NCBI GenBank assembly: GCA_017984435.1
Contig: JAGNZK010000026.1
Span: 1-40,293, forward strand
DNA length: 40,293 bases
Source: Nitrosomonas sp.
GTDB lineage: Bacteria > Pseudomonadota > Gammaproteobacteria > Burkholderiales > Nitrosomonadaceae
Direction of reading: 5' to 3'
Positions within the stretch are counted from its first letter, which is position 1, and every line of letters starts with the position of its first letter. Positions 10,551 through 40,293 of this stretch are shown piece after piece. The notes beneath the pieces are model-generated. The model saw only the letters and a list, made by a program, of their open reading frames with translations. It made no database searches and was not told the DNA's origin. The translations under genes and the position numbers were made by a program.

Positions 10551-10693
10551 TTTAAAACGAGAGAAAATGTTAAATGGCTTATTTTTGAGTATATCAAAGT
10601 ATATTATAATTGCACGAGGCGACATGCAAAGATCAGTAACTAAATACCTGCTCATTTACTCTGATGTGAATGATTTTAAATACCGGAGCTTTT

Positions 10694-11467
10694 ATGTGTC
10701 AGGTATGTGACAAAAAGAACGAATACCTTCAGCATGATTCACGAAAACGTTTATTCCTGAAATTGGCGGCAGCCTCTGCGCTGGGTTTGGGTATTAGTGG
10801 TGCAGGTATCGCCAGTGTGGAAGAAACAAAGGTACCTTTGCCGTCATCTACCAAAATCCCGCCCCAGCCTGAGAACGTGCTTACCCCTGATCAAGCTTTG
10901 GAAAGATTAATGGCAGGCAGCAAGCGGCATGGTAGTGGTCAATCGACTGTATCCTTGGACATACATACTTCCCAGGATGCTCTGGTTAAAGGGCAAAACC
11001 CCTACGCTGCCATTTTGGGTTGCGCCGACTCCAGAGTCGGTCCTGAACAGTGTTTTGATGAGGCTCACGGGGATCTATTTGTGGCTCGAGTTGCTGGTAA
11101 TTATATAACTGTCGATTTTCTGGCCACGCTTGAATATGCGGTTGCCGTATTACATACACCGTTGATCATGGTGCTTGGCCATGAAAGCTGTGGAGCTGTG
11201 GGAGCCGCTATTGATGCCATTGATAAGAATAAACAGTTTCCAGGACACATCCAAACAATGGCAACTGCATTATCGCCTGCAGTCAGAGCAGCGAGAAATA
11301 TGCCCGGAATGCTATATGAAAATGCGGTCAAAATGAATGTCATCCTCACTGTTGCCGAGCTGAAGAATAGTACCCCGATCTTGAGTCAATCCGTGAAGGA
11401 GAAAAAAATTCAGATAGTAGGCGGAGTATACCGACTAGGTACAGGTATAGTTGAATTAGTTTCTTAA
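10694..11467 (+). CDS. Beta-class carbonic anhydrase with export signal
   Basis: 257 residues from ATG 10694, chosen because CCGGAG lies 6 bases upstream; an in-frame start at 10670 would add 8 residues. It begins MCQVCDKKN, then SRKRLFLKLAAASALGLGISGAGIAS, a Tat-like signal with KR in place of RR in the RRxFLK motif. Zinc ligands Cys110, His163 and Cys166 and the catalytic dyad Asp112-Arg114 (GCADSR, GHESCGAV) mark an active beta-carbonic anhydrase that interconverts CO2 and bicarbonate, probably in the periplasm. A TATAAT-like -10 lies near 10604-10609 without a convincing -35. It is not obviously connected to metal resistance, apart from zinc use. Confidence 0.9.
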   Translation: MCQVCDKKNEYLQHDSRKRLFLKLAAASALGLGISGAGIASVEETKVPLPSSTKIPPQPENVLTPDQALERLMAGSKRHGSGQSTVSLDIHTSQDALVKGQNPYAAILGCADSRVGPEQCFDEAHGDLFVARVAGNYITVDFLATLEYAVAVLHTPLIMVLGHESCGAVGAAIDAIDKNKQFPGHIQTMATALSPAVRAARNMPGMLYENAVKMNVILTVAELKNSTPILSQSVKEKKIQIVGGVYRLGTGIVELVS

Positions 11468-19241: not shown

Positions 19242-19258
19242 TGCGACATTTTGTCGCA
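19242..19258. promoter_or_regulatory. 17-bp palindrome, copy 1, upstream of secreted protein gene
   Basis: TGCGACATTTTGTCGCA is a perfect 7-bp dyad around TTT. It lies 135 bp before the ATG at 19394. The same sequence, with matching flanks (GGG before and TTG after), recurs at 20234-20250, 104 bp before the next gene. Repetition with fixed flanks at similar distances from two start codons suggests an operator or activator site. This copy is followed by six T, so a terminator is an alternative here, but not for copy 2. Confidence 0.55.
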
Positions 19259-19393: not shown

Positions 19394-20143
19394 ATGAACA
19401 AAATGAAATTACTTGCACGTACATTGACTGGCATCATGCTGATGGGTTTGGGGCAGAGCGTGCTGGCGCATACGCGCCTAGATGTTCCCACGCAAACTGA
19501 AGGAACTCGGACAATCAATAATATCGTAATTGGTCACTCCTGCAGTGATACTGTCCGTGTTATTGGGACATCAGTTGTATTTCCAAATGGTCTGGATTCA
19601 GCTATTCTCGTGGATGGTCAGCCGCATGGTGGTCCATTGACTGATTTCCTGACAAATTATGGAAATAATTTTCAGCTTTTATGGAATCGCGGAGCATTCG
19701 ATGCGATGGCAGAGAAAAAAGATTCAAACGGTAACGTGGTTGGATTCTGGGTGGGCGGTGGACCCGGTATGCCGAGCGATTTGAATGTTGCCACGCCTGT
19801 GAGACTTACAGCAGCCGGAATCGAACCGACATCCTGCGCCAGTAGCGTGAAGATCAGTGTTTCGATTGCTAATATCTGCGAAATTACCGGTGTGGGTGAT
19901 TTTGGCAGAGAAGGTGTCGTTGATCTGTGGACGCATAATAACCTGGGTACCCCGTATGATCGCGTGAGCACAACCGACGATGGCCCGGCTTCATTTACTA
20001 TTACGCGCGATCTGGTAACAAATCCATTGCCTTCATCATGTGGTGGTACTGGCGTCACTGTAGAAGTAAAACCATCGGCCGCGCAAATTAATCGCGATAT
20101 GCCAGTTGTAATTGACGGGCAACAGATCTGGCCGCTGCCGTAG
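19394..20143 (+). CDS. Secreted protein of unknown function with predicted N-terminal His after cleavage
   Basis: A 249-residue protein with signal peptide residues 1-25 (MNKMKLLARTLTGIMLMG...VLA). The predicted mature start is His26-Thr-Arg-Leu-Asp. Four cysteines (50, 148, 162, 216) could form two disulfides in the periplasm. The mature start (H-x-x-L/V-x-P, then a GHSC block and SVVFPNG) vaguely recalls YcnI/DUF1775 copper proteins, which also begin with a metal-binding His; the resemblance is weak and I do not assign the family. There is no clear ribosome site beyond TAGGAAATAGAA about 7-12 bases before the ATG. It is followed by a strong terminator at 20186-20222, so it can be a single-gene unit. 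Neighbours are another secreted protein and a TlpA-like thioredoxin. Confidence 0.7.
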   Translation: MNKMKLLARTLTGIMLMGLGQSVLAHTRLDVPTQTEGTRTINNIVIGHSCSDTVRVIGTSVVFPNGLDSAILVDGQPHGGPLTDFLTNYGNNFQLLWNRGAFDAMAEKKDSNGNVVGFWVGGGPGMPSDLNVATPVRLTAAGIEPTSCASSVKISVSIANICEITGVGDFGREGVVDLWTHNNLGTPYDRVSTTDDGPASFTITRDLVTNPLPSSCGGTGVTVEVKPSAAQINRDMPVVIDGQQIWPLP

Positions 20144-20185
20144 ATCGCTAAACCATGAGCTCTTTACGGAGCTTGCCGCAACGGG

Positions 20186-20222
20186 AAAACCCGACAAGAT
20201 ATTGCTAGCTTGTCGGGTTTTT
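20186..20222 (+). terminator. Rho-independent terminator
   Basis: Perfect stem ACCCGACAAG (20189-20198) / CTTGTCGGGT (20209-20218), 10-base loop, then TTTT, preceded by AAA. It lies 45 bp after the stop of the secreted protein gene at 19394. Confidence 0.93.
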
Positions 20223-20233
20223 GTTGATGGGGG

Positions 20234-20250
20234 TGCGACATTTTGTCGCA
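20234..20250. promoter_or_regulatory. 17-bp palindrome, copy 2, upstream of second secreted protein gene
   Basis: TGCGACATTTTGTCGCA, identical to 19242-19258 with the same GGG and TTG flanks. It lies between the terminator at 20186-20222 and the gene at 20355, 104 bp before its ATG, so it is positioned as a regulatory site of that gene. No sigma-54 (GG-N10-GC) promoter was found between it and the gene. Confidence 0.55.
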
Positions 20251-20354
20251 TTGCTATTTGTTTGCCTGAACAAGATAATAAGATCAGGTACTACGATAAA
20301 GGTGTAGCTCCAGAAATAGCTTAATGCGTCTTTACGACATGAGGAGAATTAGTT

Positions 20355-20816
20355 ATGCAACCCAACATCTTGAAAAAATTATTAATCAGCATTTTCATGT
20401 TGGCGTATACGATAGGTTATGCGCAGCTCAGTGGAGCGGATGAAGGTGGTGCAGTATTGGATCCAACGGGTACCGTTAGAAATTTTACCGGTTATGCGCA
20501 AATCACCTGCTTTGATAACGGCAATGGACCGGCTGATTATTTAGAAGCCGATATCATAGACCTTTCCGCCCCAGTGGAACATTTATTGGTTAATTTGCTG
20601 TTGCTAAAGGGTGACAGGGCAATTAGTGTCAGTGATACAGTTTCAGGGGATGCAAATCCAAGTCCACCCATTATACTGCAAGGAGGGAACGGGGTTTATT
20701 TGTTGGTGGTGAACAAAACCGATGTAGGTCCAAGACAATTTGTAGTCGACTATCATTGTAAGACAGCAACAGGTGCTCATACCGGAACAGATATTAATGT
20801 CAAACAATTTGAGTGA
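20355..20816 (+). CDS. Secreted protein of unknown function, two cysteines
   Basis: A 153-residue protein with GAGGAG 8 bases before the ATG. The signal segment LLISIFMLAYTIGYA is followed by an extracytoplasmic domain with no recognised family. Cys52 (ITCFDNGNG) and Cys135 (DYHCKTATG) could form one disulfide. The sequence is rich in beta-favouring residues (VEHLLVNLLLLKGDRAISVSD, VYLLVVNKTDVG, FVVDYHC), suggesting a small beta-sandwich. No lipobox or anchor was seen. Its upstream palindrome matches that of the preceding secreted protein, suggesting shared control. The TlpA-like thioredoxin gene begins 126 bp downstream and may act on the disulfides of both secreted proteins (inference). Confidence 0.65.
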   Translation: MQPNILKKLLISIFMLAYTIGYAQLSGADEGGAVLDPTGTVRNFTGYAQITCFDNGNGPADYLEADIIDLSAPVEHLLVNLLLLKGDRAISVSDTVSGDANPSPPIILQGGNGVYLLVVNKTDVGPRQFVVDYHCKTATGAHTGTDINVKQFE

Positions 20817-20941
20817 TTCTTGACGTTTAGGATGTTAAACCGTGATTTATTTGATATCCCAGTTTCTTATAGTGGTGAACCTGGAAGATGATTGAATAGC
20901 ATTGTCAAATGATTCAAATAATCAATGAAGGTACCAGAACA

Positions 20942-21451
20942 ATGATTAAGAAAATAAAGTGGTTGTTCTTTATAGTTCCAATGCTGAGTCTGTATACAAC
21001 GACATCGGTTGCAGAACATCTGGATAAGATCTCGCCTGCCTGTACGCTGACTACATTGGAAGGTGCGCCCGCGCATAATTTGCAGGAATTTAAAGGGAAA
21101 GTTGTTTACATGGATTTCTGGGCATCTTGGTGTCTCCCTTGTGTGAAATCCTTTCCTTTCTTAAATGAGCTCGATCATGATTTAAAAGAACAAGGCTTAC
21201 ATGTCATTGGCATCAATCTGGATGAGAAAGTTACGGATGCCCAGGAATTTCTTGCTAAACATCCGGTGGATTTTTCTATTGTTGCGGATCCCAGTAAACA
21301 ATGCGCCAAAGGTTTTGAAGTAATAGCAATGCCAACATCCTATTTAATTGATCGAAAAGGAAACATTCGGCATATACATCGAGGATTTCGTTCTGGTGAA
21401 ACTAACGAGTTGCGTGCTTTAATTACTCAACTTGTGATGGAACATCCATAA
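20942..21451 (+). CDS. TlpA/ResA-like thioredoxin-fold protein, exported
   Basis: 169 residues from ATG 20942; GAAGG lies about 10 bases upstream, and an in-frame ATG at 20909 is rejected because it would precede the signal peptide by 11 residues. Signal segment WLFFIVPMLSLYTTTSVA. The thioredoxin fold follows, with redox motif WASWCLPCVKS (Cys64, Cys67), INLDEKVTDAQEFL, and the cis-Pro loop AMPTSYLIDRKG. The family keeps periplasmic cysteines reduced, as in cytochrome c or oxidase maturation, or delivers reductant to secreted partners. It lies downstream of two Cys-containing secreted proteins, which are plausible clients. Confidence 0.9.
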   Translation: MIKKIKWLFFIVPMLSLYTTTSVAEHLDKISPACTLTTLEGAPAHNLQEFKGKVVYMDFWASWCLPCVKSFPFLNELDHDLKEQGLHVIGINLDEKVTDAQEFLAKHPVDFSIVADPSKQCAKGFEVIAMPTSYLIDRKGNIRHIHRGFRSGETNELRALITQLVMEHP

Positions 21452-21523
21452 GGACCTACATCGACGACCCCAGTTTTCATAAAAAAGTCAATATGCTACG
21501 ATCGGTTAGACTAATGCTTATAA

Positions 21524-21577
21524 TCAGGTATCGGTTTGACAGGTTGTATCAATGGGCTCCTTGGTAAATTTAGACAT
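21524..21577 (-). other. Very short frame with a strong ribosome site
   Basis: On the minus strand AAGGAGGCAGC precedes an ATG at 21577 that opens MSKFTKEPIDTTCQTDT and stops after 17 codons. The ribosome site is among the strongest in the window, yet the frame is very short. It could be a leader peptide, a tiny protein, or the beginning of a gene cut by rearrangement. The surrounding 21452-21808 gap shows no other supported gene. Low confidence. Confidence 0.2.
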
Positions 21578-21808
21578 GCTGCCTCCTTGTATCCATAACA
21601 GATGTTAATGAGGAATGACATTATAGTAAGTCATGTATTTGTATATCGGTTATAGCAGATTCTCTGGTCTGATAGACATTGCCGGTCAATCTCTTTGCCT
21701 ACATTTAAGGCAACAATCAGAAGTCTATTTGCCCCTATACTTAGCACATTCATCTACAACCTCATCCACAGATTTTGTGGAAAAAATCTCTTACTGATTA
21801 TTGGTATT

Positions 21809-23078: not shown

Positions 23079-23608
23079 TTTTGTAATTTAGGTTCTATGT
23101 CCCGATCTAAATCCAACGAATATGGCCCTTTATACGGGTATTGCAGAAGAACCCCACTTAATAACCCCAAGTAAAAACCGGTTCAACAACATGTTGAATC
23201 TGCAAACTCACAATCAGTCCAAAATACCGCGCATCAAAAGAATTGGGGTTTACATCAGACATAAGCAGATATTCAGAATCACCCAGCATCTTCTCCCCCA
23301 AACGATATTGCGGCAGTTCAGAACCATCAATATCTGTTTTTAACTGGACACTGTTAGGCAACAGTTCACCGTTAACCTTAATCCCTGCCCCACCGATAGA
23401 AACAGTGTCTCCTGCCTGTGCAAAAACACGTTTCAGCAACATCCCATAACCGCCCGGACAATTACCCGTGCTAATGTAATGCCGTGCCATAGCCATATCA
23501 AAAACTTCGTCTTGTGGTGGACAGAAAGAGACGTATGCGCCCTTCCCTACTGGTTCATCAACTATCTTGTAAAACCCCACCGGAAAACTCGGCGTATTAT
23601 TGTAATAA
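23079..23608. repeat. 530-bp duplication, copy 1 (traF region)
   Basis: Direct repeat of 38943-39472: same orientation, equal length, no indel. It covers most of traF and 79 bp beyond its stop. The first 79 bases differ at about one position. Predicted proteins differ at about 14 of 140 residues, all after the first 54. The right end of homology is abrupt at 23608, within traF. Confidence 0.9.
23158..23608 (-). pseudogene. traF: traF-like conjugative signal peptidase, N-terminally truncated copy
   Basis: The frame encodes YYNNTPSFPVGFYKIVDE onward to HVVEP-FTWGY, the same protein as 39022-39564 but lacking its first roughly 32 residues, including the membrane anchor. The upstream frame meets a stop codon just before the homology break. 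The catalytic Ser (in PSFPVG) and Lys (in LLKRVFA) are still present, but without the anchor and a start the gene is presumably dead. It lies between an IS6 remnant and MITE-like element 2. Confidence 0.82.
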
Positions 23609-23960: not shown

Positions 23961-24314
23961 TTATTTAGCTTCTGCACCCATTTTCCGATGAGAGGCTGCC
24001 ATTTCCAAATTCTCTTTTGTAGCTAGCTCGTACGCACGTATCAAACCTTGGCACATTGATCCCATGTCTAGCCCTTGTCTACCATAGTATTGGCTTTCTG
24101 CTTGATATTTTTCATACATTTTTTGGTGTTCCTGAACTTTTGATTGCATCTCCTTAGCAGCTGCATCGTAATATTTAGCTAGTGCCTCATGGTCAGCAGG
24201 AGTTTTAGCATTTTGAACAGCTTGTCCCATGTCCATTGAGTAAGCATTCATTTGCACACCGAAAAGTAATAAACCCAGAATAATTAAAAATAAAACACTA
24301 ATTTTAGTTTTCAT
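23961..24314 (-). CDS. Small helical secreted protein, paralogue A
   Basis: A 117-residue protein with signal peptide MKTKISVLFLIILGLLLFGVQMNAYS. The mature part is almost wholly helical and charged: NAKTPADHEALAKYYDAAAKEMQ, VQEHQKMYEKYQAESQYYGRQG, LDMGSMCQGLIRAYELATKEN, LEMAASHRKMGAEAK. Heptad-like spacing suggests a helical hairpin or coiled coil. One Cys lies in SMCQGLIRAYE. It is clearly paralogous to the adjacent 24409-24765 gene. No functional family recognised. It is the last gene of the minus-strand cluster that includes the HD-GYP, P-type ATPase and cus genes; GGTGATC precedes the ATG. Confidence 0.72.
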   Translation of the reverse strand: MKTKISVLFLIILGLLLFGVQMNAYSMDMGQAVQNAKTPADHEALAKYYDAAAKEMQSKVQEHQKMYEKYQAESQYYGRQGLDMGSMCQGLIRAYELATKENLEMAASHRKMGAEAK

Positions 24315-24408: not shown

Positions 24409-24765
24409 TTATTTAATCGCTTCGGCCATTATGCGATGAGATTTAGCCAAATCCATATTTTGCTTTGTAGCTTGCTCATACACATATATCAAAGCACGAC
24501 ACATTGATTCCATATCTAAGCCGCGTTTTCCATAATATTGTCTTTGTGCTTCATATTCCGCTAGCATTTTCTTATGTTCTTCTGCATTTGACTGCATCTC
24601 CTTTGCAGTATCCTCATAATGCTGAGCAAGTTCATTATGGGCACTAGGAGTTTTTGCATTCCGAATTTCTTCAGTCATATCCATCTGATAAGGTTCAAAA
24701 GGCGCACAGGAAGTTAGTACCCAGAACAAACCAAAAATAGCTAATGATAAAATCGAGATTCTCAT
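24409..24765 (-). CDS. Small helical lipoprotein, paralogue B
   Basis: A 118-residue protein paralogous to its downstream neighbour: NAKTPSAHNELAQHYEDTAKEMQ, YEAQRQYYGKRGLDMESMCRALIYVYEQATKQNMDLAKSHRIM. Here the signal peptide ends LTSC, a lipobox, so this copy should be lipid-anchored, whereas paralogue A has a normal signal peptide. The conserved YYGxxGLDMxSMC core and the single Cys are shared. Function unknown. The tandem pair, one anchored and one soluble, could form a heteromeric periplasmic complex (inference). The ribosome site is weak. Confidence 0.72.
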   Translation of the reverse strand: MRISILSLAIFGLFWVLTSCAPFEPYQMDMTEEIRNAKTPSAHNELAQHYEDTAKEMQSNAEEHKKMLAEYEAQRQYYGKRGLDMESMCRALIYVYEQATKQNMDLAKSHRIMAEAIK

Positions 24766-37894: not shown

Positions 37895-38942
37895 CCTGAT
37901 TTGAAAGATTGTTCAGCCAAACCCGATTTTTTCTATTATAAGGCGCATACTGCCCCAAACAAACCCATCAAAGAGAAACTGCCATGGCCATGAACCGTAT
38001 CCAATTCCAAGCAGGCTTGTCCTTACCTGCATTCCTTGCGCAGTTTGGCACAGATGAACAATGCGCGGATGCATTGGAAGCGTCCCGTTGGCCGCAAGGA
38101 TTCAGCTGCCCAGGCTGCGGCAACGCGAAATACTACTTGCTTAAGTTAGGAAAACACAAGAACTTCCAATGCAAGTGCTGCCGGTTGCAGACATCTCTGA
38201 TCGCAGGCACCTTGTTCCAAAGCACCCACCTGGCGCTAAGCATTTGGTTCTTAGCAATTTATCTAATCAGCCAAGCCAAGACCGGTTTGTCGGCACTCGA
38301 CCTTAAGCGGCAGTTGGGCGTGAGCTATCCCCCGGCTTGGCTGATTCAGCAGAAGCTGATGCAGGCGATGGTCGAACGGGATGCCAAGTACACGCTGTGT
38401 GGTAATGTCCAAGCGGATGATGCTTACCTTGGCGGAGAATTGGCTGGCGGCAAGGCAGGCCGGGGTTCCGAGAACAAGGTGCCTTTTGTGGCGGCCATTT
38501 CGCTCAGTGCCGAAGGCCGTCCCCTGTATATTAAAATGGCACCGGTTCCTGGTTTTACGCGCAAAGCGGTTTCCGACTGGGCTAACGCTGACCTCCAGCC
38601 AGGTTGTATAGTCACTTCCGATGGATTGGGTTGTTTTGCCGGGGTTACTGATGCAGGCTGCCAGCACCGGGCAATCGTCGCGGACGGTCGCAAACCCAAA
38701 GAATTACCAGAATTCAACTGGATCAACACGGTTTTGGGCAACCTCAAAACCAGCCTGGGCGGCGCTCATCATGCATTCGATTTCGCCAAATACGGAACCC
38801 GTTACCTCGGTGCGTTTGTTTACCGTTTCAACCGGCGCTTCCATCTTGAGATGCTTCCACTACGTCTACTCGCCGCTGCAGCCACTACCGGGCATCGCCC
38901 AACACGTTGGCTTCGGCAAGCTGAAGAATCTTTCTAATCAGG
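37895..38942 (+). mobile_element. IS1595-family insertion sequence, complete (1048 bp)
   Basis: Terminal inverted repeats of 23 bp, 37895-37917 (beginning CCTGATTTGAAAGATT) and 38920-38942 (complement beginning CCTGATTAGAAAGATT), match at 21 of 23 positions. They enclose one transposase gene whose stop codon lies inside the right repeat. The 8 bp next to each end (TTAAACTT and TTTTGTAA) are not a direct repeat, although the family normally makes an 8-bp target duplication, so one flank was probably rearranged after insertion. Confidence 0.88.
37984..38937 (+). CDS. IS1595-family transposase
   Basis: A 317-residue protein. The N-terminal zinc ribbon (SCPGCGN at 41-47; FQCKCC at 61-66) is followed by a helical linker (TLFQSTHLALSIWFLAIYLIS, LKRQLGVSY) and an RNase-H-like DDE-type core: VQADDAYLGGELAGGKAGRG (first Asp), VTSDGLGCF (second Asp), then WINTVLGNLKTSLGGAHH near the expected third catalytic position (Asn or Glu in this family). 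The C-terminal YRFNRRF block is typical. The gene appears intact and the element may be active. It differs clearly from the remnant at 11476-11768. Confidence 0.9.
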   Translation: MAMNRIQFQAGLSLPAFLAQFGTDEQCADALEASRWPQGFSCPGCGNAKYYLLKLGKHKNFQCKCCRLQTSLIAGTLFQSTHLALSIWFLAIYLISQAKTGLSALDLKRQLGVSYPPAWLIQQKLMQAMVERDAKYTLCGNVQADDAYLGGELAGGKAGRGSENKVPFVAAISLSAEGRPLYIKMAPVPGFTRKAVSDWANADLQPGCIVTSDGLGCFAGVTDAGCQHRAIVADGRKPKELPEFNWINTVLGNLKTSLGGAHHAFDFAKYGTRYLGAFVYRFNRRFHLEMLPLRLLAAAATTGHRPTRWLRQAEESF

Positions 38943-39472
38943 TTTTGTAATTTAGGTTCTATGTCACGATCTAAATCCAACGAATATGGCCCTTTATACG
39001 GGTATTGCAGAAGAACCCCACTTAATAACCCCACGTAAAAAACGGCTCAACCACATGTTGAATCTGCAAACCCGCAATCAGCCCAAAATACCGCGCATCA
39101 AAAGAATTCGGATTCACATCTGACATAAGCAGATATTCAGAATCACCCAGCACCCGCACACCCAAACGATATTGCGGCATTTCAGAACCATCAATATCTG
39201 TTTTTAACTGGGCACTGTTAGGCAGTAAGCCATCATTTACAGTAATACCCGCCTCATTAATAGAAACAGTATCCCCGGCTACCGCAAAAACACGTTTCAG
39301 CAACATGCCATAACCGCCTGGACAATTACCCGTGCTAATGTAATGCCGTGCCATAGCCATATCAAAAACCTCGTCTTGTGGTGGGCAGAAAGAGACGTAT
39401 GCGCCCTTCCCTACTGGTTCATCAACAATCTTGTAAAACCCCACCGGAAAACTCGGCGTATTATTGTAATAA
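38943..39472. repeat. 530-bp duplication, copy 2 (traF region)
   Basis: Direct repeat of 23079-23608. Its left end is the first base after the IS1595 right terminal repeat. It includes the traF 3' two-thirds and 79 bp of downstream sequence. On the minus strand this downstream part also keeps an open frame (LLQYPYKGPYSLDLDRDIEP and KLQN) up to the IS boundary. Confidence 0.9.
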
Positions 39473-39564
39473 ATACCCGTGAGTCGAAAAACAATACTCA
39501 ACAGAAATATCCCGGCACTGACAGACAAAACAATGCCTGCCAGAATATTGCGTATTTTTCTCAT
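39022..39564 (-). CDS. traF: TraF-type conjugative transfer signal peptidase (S26 family)
   Basis: 180 residues with an N-terminal anchor (ILAGIVLSVSAGIFLLSIVFRL). The catalytic Ser lies in NTPSFPVGFYK and the general-base Lys in GMLLKRVFAVAGDTV. MSDVNPNSFDARYFGLI is the family's SDNRxxSxDSRYxG block. In RP4-type systems TraF cleaves and cyclises the pilin TrbC and is needed for conjugation. The ATG overlaps the stop of traG by 4 bp (39561-39564), the RP4-like order traG-traF. A truncated duplicate lies at 23158-23608. Confidence 0.9.
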   Translation of the reverse strand: MRKIRNILAGIVLSVSAGIFLLSIVFRLTGIYYNNTPSFPVGFYKIVDEPVGKGAYVSFCPPQDEVFDMAMARHYISTGNCPGGYGMLLKRVFAVAGDTVSINEAGITVNDGLLPNSAQLKTDIDGSEMPQYRLGVRVLGDSEYLLMSDVNPNSFDARYFGLIAGLQIQHVVEPFFTWGY

Positions 39565-40293
39565 GATGATTGGATTATTTTGTCGCTGTAAGCCGGTGCA
39601 GGAACAGCAGCCCGTGCAGAAAACACAGAATCTTGAAAGTACAAAGGCTGCTTGCCATATATAGCAGGATAACCCGCCACATAAATAATCATGTCACCTG
39701 GCTTGGTAATCTTGCCTTCAGCATCTTTTTCTGGTGAAGTCATGCGTAAACACTCGTCAGGTGTTAGTAAAGGACGCTGTGTTTCCTGCATGGTTCGCGT
39801 CACGTTGCCGTGCATCACCCCTACCCGCCTACCACTGGTCGTAATCTGCTCCTTGATGACCGTGGTTTGTCCGGTCAGCTTGGATAAATGCTCGGCGGTT
39901 TCAATCCGGTTGGGTGGAAAGGCATTTTGAATATGACAATTGGACGTGATCGCCTCATCGTGGCCGTATCCCGTCTCGCGGCTTTTAAGCTGATTGATAT
40001 CTTGGCAGATCAAATAGGCTTTAATACCGTAGCCAGCAATAAACGCCAAGGATTCCTGAAAGATTTCCAGTTTACCCAGACTGGGAAATTCATCGAGCAT
40101 CAACAAAAGCCGATGCTTATAGTTCGCCACCGGCTGACCATCCTTAAAATCAAGCCTGTCTGCTAATGTCCGCACAATCATATTCATCATGATGCGCACC
40201 AGTGGCCGTAAACGAGTTTTATCGTTAGGCTGCGTCACAATGTATAAACTGACAGGGTTAGCGTTGTGCATCAAATCACGAATTGCAAAATCC
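39561..40293 (-). CDS. traG: TraG/VirD4-type coupling protein, C-terminal part (cut by window edge)
   Basis: The frame is open to the right edge (DFAIRDLMHNANPVSLYIVT), so the gene starts outside the window. Visible are PNDKTRLRPLVRIMMNMI, the Walker B region HRLLLMLDEFPSLGKLEIFQ, the conserved GIKAYLICQDINQLKSRETGYG block, and ETAEHLSKLTGQTTV, all typical of the C-terminal half of TraG/VirD4 T4SS coupling ATPases. It recruits the relaxosome to the transfer channel. Walker A lies outside the window. Translationally coupled to traF. Confidence 0.9.
   Translation of the reverse strand, partial: DFAIRDLMHNANPVSLYIVTQPNDKTRLRPLVRIMMNMIVRTLADRLDFKDGQPVANYKHRLLLMLDEFPSLGKLEIFQESLAFIAGYGIKAYLICQDINQLKSRETGYGHDEAITSNCHIQNAFPPNRIETAEHLSKLTGQTTVIKEQITTSGRRVGVMHGNVTRTMQETQRPLLTPDECLRMTSPEKDAEGKITKPGDMIIYVAGYPAIYGKQPLYFQDSVFSARAAVPAPAYSDKIIQSS

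Follow-up and report, generated by a model that had tools for sequence, protein, structure and literature searches.

We analysed a cassette of three genes in Nitrosomonas sp. that encodes two secreted proteins and a TlpA-like thioredoxin. It lies on contig JAGNZK010000026.1 of assembly GCA_017984435.1, the whole 40,293-nucleotide length of which we call the window. The three open reading frames (ORFs) are arranged consecutively, head to tail, on the forward strand between two blocks of metal-efflux genes (named by eye), in agreement with a preliminary description that had placed such a trio within a metal-resistance island. We find that the cassette is best explained as a truncated and mobile version of an envelope operon found in Nitrosomonas. 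The features of the locus are:

19242-19258, upstream of ORF1: perfect palindrome TGCGACATTTTGTCGCA, a candidate operator
19394-20143, + strand: ORF1, 249 residues, secreted YcnI/DUF1775-like protein with mature N-terminal His26
19469-19471, + strand: codon of ORF1 His26, the predicted mature N terminus
20234-20250, between ORF1 and ORF2, upstream of ORF2: second, identical palindrome TGCGACATTTTGTCGCA
20355-20816, + strand: ORF2, 153 residues, secreted jelly-roll protein of a family found in the window's genus only
20909-21451, + strand: ORF3, 180 residues, TlpA/ResA-like thioredoxin with a CLPC motif (Cys75/78)
21470-21619, + strand: possible decayed DUF4266 remnant, a weak tblastn match

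ORF1 is a YcnI/DUF1775 relative

ORF1 starts with a 25-residue signal peptide, after which the mature protein begins HTRLD and comprises 224 residues with four Cys (50, 148, 162 and 216). These properties, anticipated in the preliminary description, were borne out, the signal cleavage by a rule-based check. The residue after the cleavage site is His in all 77 non-redundant relatives of ORF1, in which the -1 position is occupied by Ala (66), Ser (9), Gly (1) or Thr (1) and the -3 position by Ala (48), Val (22), Thr (5) or Leu (2). The four Cys, Trp179 (77/77) and Trp246 are likewise invariant, and His48 is present in 76 of the 77 sequences. The domain plan consists of a YcnI-like part, approximately residues 26-205, followed by a C-terminal extension.

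No Pfam or NCBIfam family scores above cut-off for ORF1, and the preliminary description recognised none with confidence. However, profile and structure comparisons identify one. Profile-profile comparison of ORF1 with a DUF1775-type family gave 96.3% (96.7% with other settings), compared with 7.9% for ORF1 against ORF2, even though the latter two proteins share a signal peptide followed by Ala-His. Among 398 genomes of the phylum, the ORF1 family profile also has matches in 29. Two of these are Nitrosomonas, and the rest yielded 27 loci, each with a DUF1775-type ORF. These phylum-wide matches are largely confined to profile positions up to 60-75, which take in the signal peptide. An AlphaFold model of ORF1 (predicted local distance difference test score (pLDDT) 93.3, predicted template modelling score 0.87) has the YcnI structures as its closest structural matches, well separated from all others. 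The first aligned residue pair is His26 of ORF1 and the copper ligand His27 of YcnI, as fits the comparison with YcnI offered in the preliminary description. A looser profile alignment of ORF1 to the protein at locus L117 additionally pairs Cys162 with Cys142, Trp179 with Trp149 and Pro198-Ala199 with Pro162-Ala163.

ORF1 thus shares with YcnI/DUF1775 proteins its fold, the mature N-terminal His, conserved Cys and, with low confidence, Trp residues, and a proteobacterial HxC motif: His48-x-Cys50 resembles the HGC motif present in 25 of 25 aligned proteobacterial DUF1775 proteins. It differs from them in having a C-terminal segment of about 45 extra residues with the invariant Cys216 and Trp246, in lacking Glu50, in the absence of any fused membrane anchor or PCuAC domain that we could see, and in its thioredoxin/flavin operon setting. 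ORF1 is a YcnI/DUF1775 relative despite falling outside the cut-off of Pfam PF07987. From residue conservation, His26, His48 and Trp179 form its candidate metal site.

ORF2 and the thioredoxin

No Pfam or NCBIfam family scores above cut-off for ORF2. The two Cys noted in its preliminary description (Cys52 and Cys135) are each conserved in 50 of 50 family members, as are His134, His142, Asp69 and Asp94. At position 29, which directly follows the predicted signal cleavage, 46 of the 50 members have His and the other four, which include the window copy, have Asp. Most of the family therefore resembles histidine-brace copper proteins at the mature N terminus, whereas the window protein, with Asp29, does not. 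The predicted model (pLDDT 87.0) is a jelly-roll similar to many unrelated domains. Metal binding by ORF2 is a guess that we read from its pattern of His residues. Tandem duplicates of ORF2 occur at L056 (9118-10085) and at L099.

ORF3 belongs to the Pfam Redoxin family (E 6.5e-24) and carries conserved Cys45 and Cys132 in addition to the CLPC pair. Its synonymous divergence from related loci falls into two groups, 0.04-0.12 to L032, L034 and L038 and 0.76-1.09 to L031, L035, L037 and L044, whereas ORF1 and ORF2 of these same loci stay close to the window. This pattern suggests recombination inside the cassette.

The cassette is the front of a larger operon

The system is not specific to the metal-resistance island in which the preliminary description noted it. 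ORF1 relatives occur in 80 of the 200 genomes searched, the window's own included. All 80 belong to the window's genus, which contributes 86 genomes to the sample; the other 114 have none. ORF2 relatives were found in 62 of 121 genomes, all from the same genus. Individual genomes contain up to seven ORF1 matches. ORF1 is unmatched in six genomes of the genus, two of which are 80-83% complete. The window's own genome, rated 92% complete, contains ORF1 in four clear copies and a fifth, weak one, ORF2 in three copies, and a single copy each of DUF3570 (contig C47) and ApbE (contig C83). One of its ORF1 paralogues is highly divergent (293 residues, profile E 7e-42) and, at locus L232 (contig C53, 3807-5413), is oriented divergently from a fecI/fecR pair, with two palindromes in between.

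We examined gene neighbourhoods in a sample of 54 loci that were selected for holding ORF1 and were not de-duplicated. ORF1 is accompanied by ORF2 in 44, a thioredoxin in 41, a protein of about 900 residues in 37, a protein of about 80 residues ending in CxC in 25, and a 300-residue protein in 24. Pfam assigns representatives of the last three to DUF3570 (E 8.8e-103), DUF4266 (E 6.2e-19) and ApbE (E 1.2e-68), respectively. The usual neighbours of the fetched core-genome loci are hrcA, hemH, recN and nadK-type genes (named by eye). In a second type of cassette, seen at L063, L064, L065, L068, L071, L074 and L079, a gene for a secreted HEAT-repeat protein separates ORF1 from an ORF2 paralogue, and no thioredoxin follows directly.

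A cluster of thioredoxin, DUF4266, DUF3570 and ApbE genes is already known; the sections of PMC8238504 that describe it report that DUF3570 is flavinylated and has two conserved motifs, and call its function uncertain. The Nitrosomonas core-genome copies share the gene order of those clusters and, in most DUF3570 proteins, the SGAT-type flavinylation motif, which is present as [S/T]GA[S/T] at least once in 30 of 33 long Nitrosomonas DUF3570 sequences. They depart from the described clusters in that ORF1 and ORF2 come first, in that most DUF3570 proteins have one SGAT motif instead of two (a second is found in two of about 30), and in having a thioredoxin of the Redoxin/AhpC-TSA type as opposed to the PF13899 type given there. 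DUF3570 is also larger, at about 900 residues versus 373-452 residues in 20 loci from other genera. Within those 20 loci (9-16 kb stretches from 18 genomes), hidden Markov models built from the Nitrosomonas genes assigned a thioredoxin in 18, DUF4266 in 16 and ApbE in 15, two of these assignments being to ORFs of implausibly great length; none contained ORF1, ORF2 or DUF1775. Because they are absent from these loci, ORF1 and ORF2 look like a Nitrosomonas addition to the known cluster.

The proposal of an undescribed periplasmic metal or redox system is therefore only partly upheld. It fits the conserved gene set, but the system is larger than three genes, with DUF4266, DUF3570 and ApbE following in many core copies, and this rear half is the flavinylation cluster described, and left functionally unexplained, in those sections of PMC8238504. 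Each half of the operon is thus of a known kind. Our literature searches found no description of the union of the two halves, of the ORF2 family or of the palindrome regulon discussed below. Neither of the outcomes named beforehand as refuting the proposal emerged, these being cleavage at another site, or an unrelated known family without conserved His and Cys sites. The YcnI relation of ORF1, the two palindromes, the missing downstream half and the N-terminal His of most ORF2 relatives all go beyond the preliminary description.

The island copy is truncated and under selection

The window copy has no DUF4266, DUF3570 or ApbE next to the thioredoxin, and nothing significant follows ORF3. The DUF4266-like trace at 21470-21619 (57 residues, 30% identity, E 0.066 in a 5-kb stretch) is not significant, and lies in the expected place and orientation. 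The near copies at L031, L035 and L037 match the window from about 19144 to about 21443, after which the sequences diverge. Past the point of divergence, L037 has DUF4266 and a 906-residue DUF3570, and L031 and L035 have shorter DUF3570 pieces.

Measured against seven near copies, the window has ratios of non-synonymous to synonymous divergence of 0.10-0.16 for ORF1, 0.06-0.25 for ORF2 and 0.08-0.23 for ORF3. These values indicate purifying selection, so the cassette, though shortened, probably remains in use. A midpoint-rooted FastTree phylogeny places the island ORF1 amid ORF1s from the core operons of other Nitrosomonas and apart from the core copies of its own genome, a position in line with transfer between species.

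A shared palindrome links the operon to metal-uptake genes

The 17-bp palindrome gives four strand matches in the window, compared with a mean of 0.14 in shuffled sequences, of which 0 of 100 reach four. In the form TGYGACANNNTGTCRCA it occurs at eight sites in the window's own genome, where the backward-read pattern has none. Of these, the window and the core cassette have two each, a further two separate fecI/fecR from the ORF1 paralogue divergent to it, one accompanies another ORF1 paralogue, and the last lies elsewhere. The exact form TGCGACANNNTGTCGCA is present in 66 of 86 genomes of the genus, against two for the backward control. The palindrome lies upstream of 46 of 53 ORF1 copies (25 exact, 21 relaxed), whereas random windows of the same loci contain it in 1.0% (exact) or 2.1% (relaxed) of cases. 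The spacer is all A/T in 90 of 92 distinct sites.

We also inspected 40 further palindrome loci from 13 genomes, hand-picked from the sites listed, with genomes lacking ORF1 preferred. At 24 of the 40, the palindrome is next to fecI/fecR, tonB-exbB-exbD, a gene for a TonB receptor or a PepSY protein, or one for a BNR protein, which in most cases has a TonB receptor as its neighbour. The remainder lie beside a multicopper-oxidase-like gene, an unnamed membrane protein or polysaccharide-type genes, or beside nothing telling. The palindrome therefore appears, from the genes that it accompanies, to define a metal-uptake regulon in Nitrosomonas. At L211-L250, TGCGACA-WWW-TGTCGCA looks like the operator of such a regulon.

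According to the passages of PMC3050691 that concern it, N. europaea Fur uses an E. coli-like box, and the palindrome is for this reason probably bound by a regulator other than Fur. A RegA-like regulator is possible. The core of the window palindrome, GCGACATTTTGTCGC, fits the B. japonicum RegR consensus GNGRCRTTNNGNCGC as it is given in part of PMC5506826, and the window's own genome encodes a RegA-like regulator beside a histidine kinase; this protein scores 197.9 bits versus the required 250. What sets the palindrome apart from RegA/PrrA/RegR sites, however, is that the spacer departs from the consensus in most of its other copies and that their neighbours are metal-uptake genes, not respiratory ones. 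The neighbouring genes thus do not favour a RegA-like regulator.

A candidate operon for copper handling

With moderate confidence, we propose an envelope operon for the capture or handling of Cu(II) coupled to thiol and flavin electron transfer. The proposal builds on the computed gene order, the conserved N-terminal His and YcnI fold of ORF1, the common palindrome, the co-occurring flavinylation genes and the purifying selection on the island copy. ORF1 would bind a metal, most likely Cu(II), outside the cytoplasmic membrane, and ORF2 of most family members, with its N-terminal His, His134 and His142, may do likewise. The TlpA-like thioredoxin, the CxC protein DUF4266 and flavinylated DUF3570, a putative outer-membrane-type protein with flavin mononucleotide attached by ApbE, would carry electrons to or from the metal or its Cys ligands. 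The metal would in this way be captured or redox-changed for use, under conditions that also induce TonB-dependent uptake. In the island, the ORF1-ORF2-TlpA cassette could work with the core-genome DUF3570 (C47) and ApbE (C83) of its host. Metal binding, copper as the metal, the direction of electron flow and uptake over resistance are all inferred.

A number of observations weigh against this proposal. PF07987 gives no match for ORF1, either directly or in the search of its own genome, and is absent among the 14 Pfam families listed for the 77 relatives. A stricter profile comparison aligns only ORF1 residues 8-68, a stretch that contains the signal peptide. The pairing of Trp179 with YcnI Trp137 is of low confidence: Trp179 pairs with Trp149 of L117 in the looser alignment alone, and the step on to Trp137 is drawn through 3esm. 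The YcnI ligand Glu50 is not conserved, His48 being one position before it; passages of PMC8424229 note that this Glu is missing in many proteobacterial YcnI/DUF1775 members. Position 29 of ORF2 is Asp, not His, in the window and in all 25 close copies examined (not de-duplicated). ORF2 is missing from the vicinity of 14 of 53 ORF1 copies, and the ORF2-TlpA pair from that of 22. The exact palindrome is lacking in 20 of 86 genomes of the genus, and no palindrome lies upstream of seven of 53 ORF1 copies, five of which are the second copy of a tandem pair. Finally, of the 92 palindrome sites, 10 have Fur-box matches of at least 15/19, all six tonB loci being among these, and the palindrome-linked neighbours resemble iron uptake more than copper uptake.

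These last findings bear on the most serious of the alternatives, which we consider unlikely overall. The operon could serve reductive iron assimilation, with the flavin/thiol module reducing ferric iron at the cell surface and with ORF1 and ORF2 binding or passing on iron or repairing oxidised ligands, with no role for copper. The palindrome is found at tonB-exbBD, fecIR and TonB-receptor promoters, several of them with strong Fur-box matches. The relevant sections of PMC8238504 suggest iron assimilation for some DUF3570 clusters, 25 of which have a VIT1 transporter, and those of PMC3050691 describe TonB receptors of N. europaea as responsive to iron and Fur. However, neither window palindrome is among the sites with Fur-box matches of at least 14/19. 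Moreover, the fold and N-terminal His of ORF1 are those of a copper(II) protein, an N-terminal His being typical of copper sites.

A role in accessory metal resistance, in which the secreted proteins sequester or oxidise excess copper or another metal in the periplasm, could explain why metal-efflux islands pick up the cassette. The window copy and further ORF1 copies (L040, L050, L053, L069 and L247) do lie beside genes for resistance-nodulation-division, cation diffusion facilitator or P-type ATPase efflux systems (by eye). Nevertheless, the near genus-wide presence of the ORF1 family (80 of 86 genomes), the palindrome that it has in common with uptake genes, and core-genome neighbours other than efflux genes make this explanation rather doubtful. 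Improbable, finally, is that the cassette oxidises, reduces or metallates an envelope protein such as an ammonia-oxidation cuproenzyme, with ORF1 as copper chaperone and TlpA as thiol partner: ORF1 has four invariant Cys and TlpA-like proteins of other bacteria reduce the thiols of copper-site proteins, but no ammonia-oxidation gene was seen by eye beside the fetched copies, and six genomes of the genus, including the two that are 80-83% complete, have no ORF1 match.

The evidence pulls in three directions: the uptake-like regulon towards acquisition, the islands towards tolerance and the Fur-linked promoters towards iron. A more ambitious version of our proposal would make the full operon a dedicated copper-acquisition machine in a genus that has to provide its ammonia monooxygenase with copper. 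Two His-headed secreted proteins would catch Cu(II), which would be reduced or released by a thioredoxin/CxC/flavin relay running from periplasm to outer membrane; one palindromic operator would be shared with the TonB system; and the island cassette would be a mobile capture module that plugs into the single DUF3570 and ApbE of the host. We regard this version as speculative and unlikely to hold in full.

Ammonia oxidisers depend on copper, and the operon may be one way in which they handle extracellular metal. How bacterial members of this group acquire copper is poorly understood, and the operon provides a genus-wide candidate with a testable copper ligand. A 2026 study refers, in the part concerned with this subject, to a remaining lack of knowledge on copper competition among soil ammonia oxidisers (PMC13003922). 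For the DUF3570/DUF4266/ApbE cluster, the operon is the first association with a copper-protein fold among the clusters examined here.

Other features of the window

The window also contains a gene of tyrosine-recombinase type, two for TraF-like S26 peptidases, one resembling a transposase gene and one resembling a coupling-protein gene (named by eye, one peptidase being confirmed by Pfam), located at 239-1189, 23158-23580, 37984-38937, 39022-39564 and 39561-40274. They give the metal island the look of a conjugative element. The gene at 10670-11467 encodes, judged by eye, a protein that resembles carbonic anhydrases and has an export-type sequence at its N terminus. An adjoining pair of related small exported proteins of about 118 residues, for which no Pfam family scores above cut-off, lies at 23961-24314 and 24409-24765.
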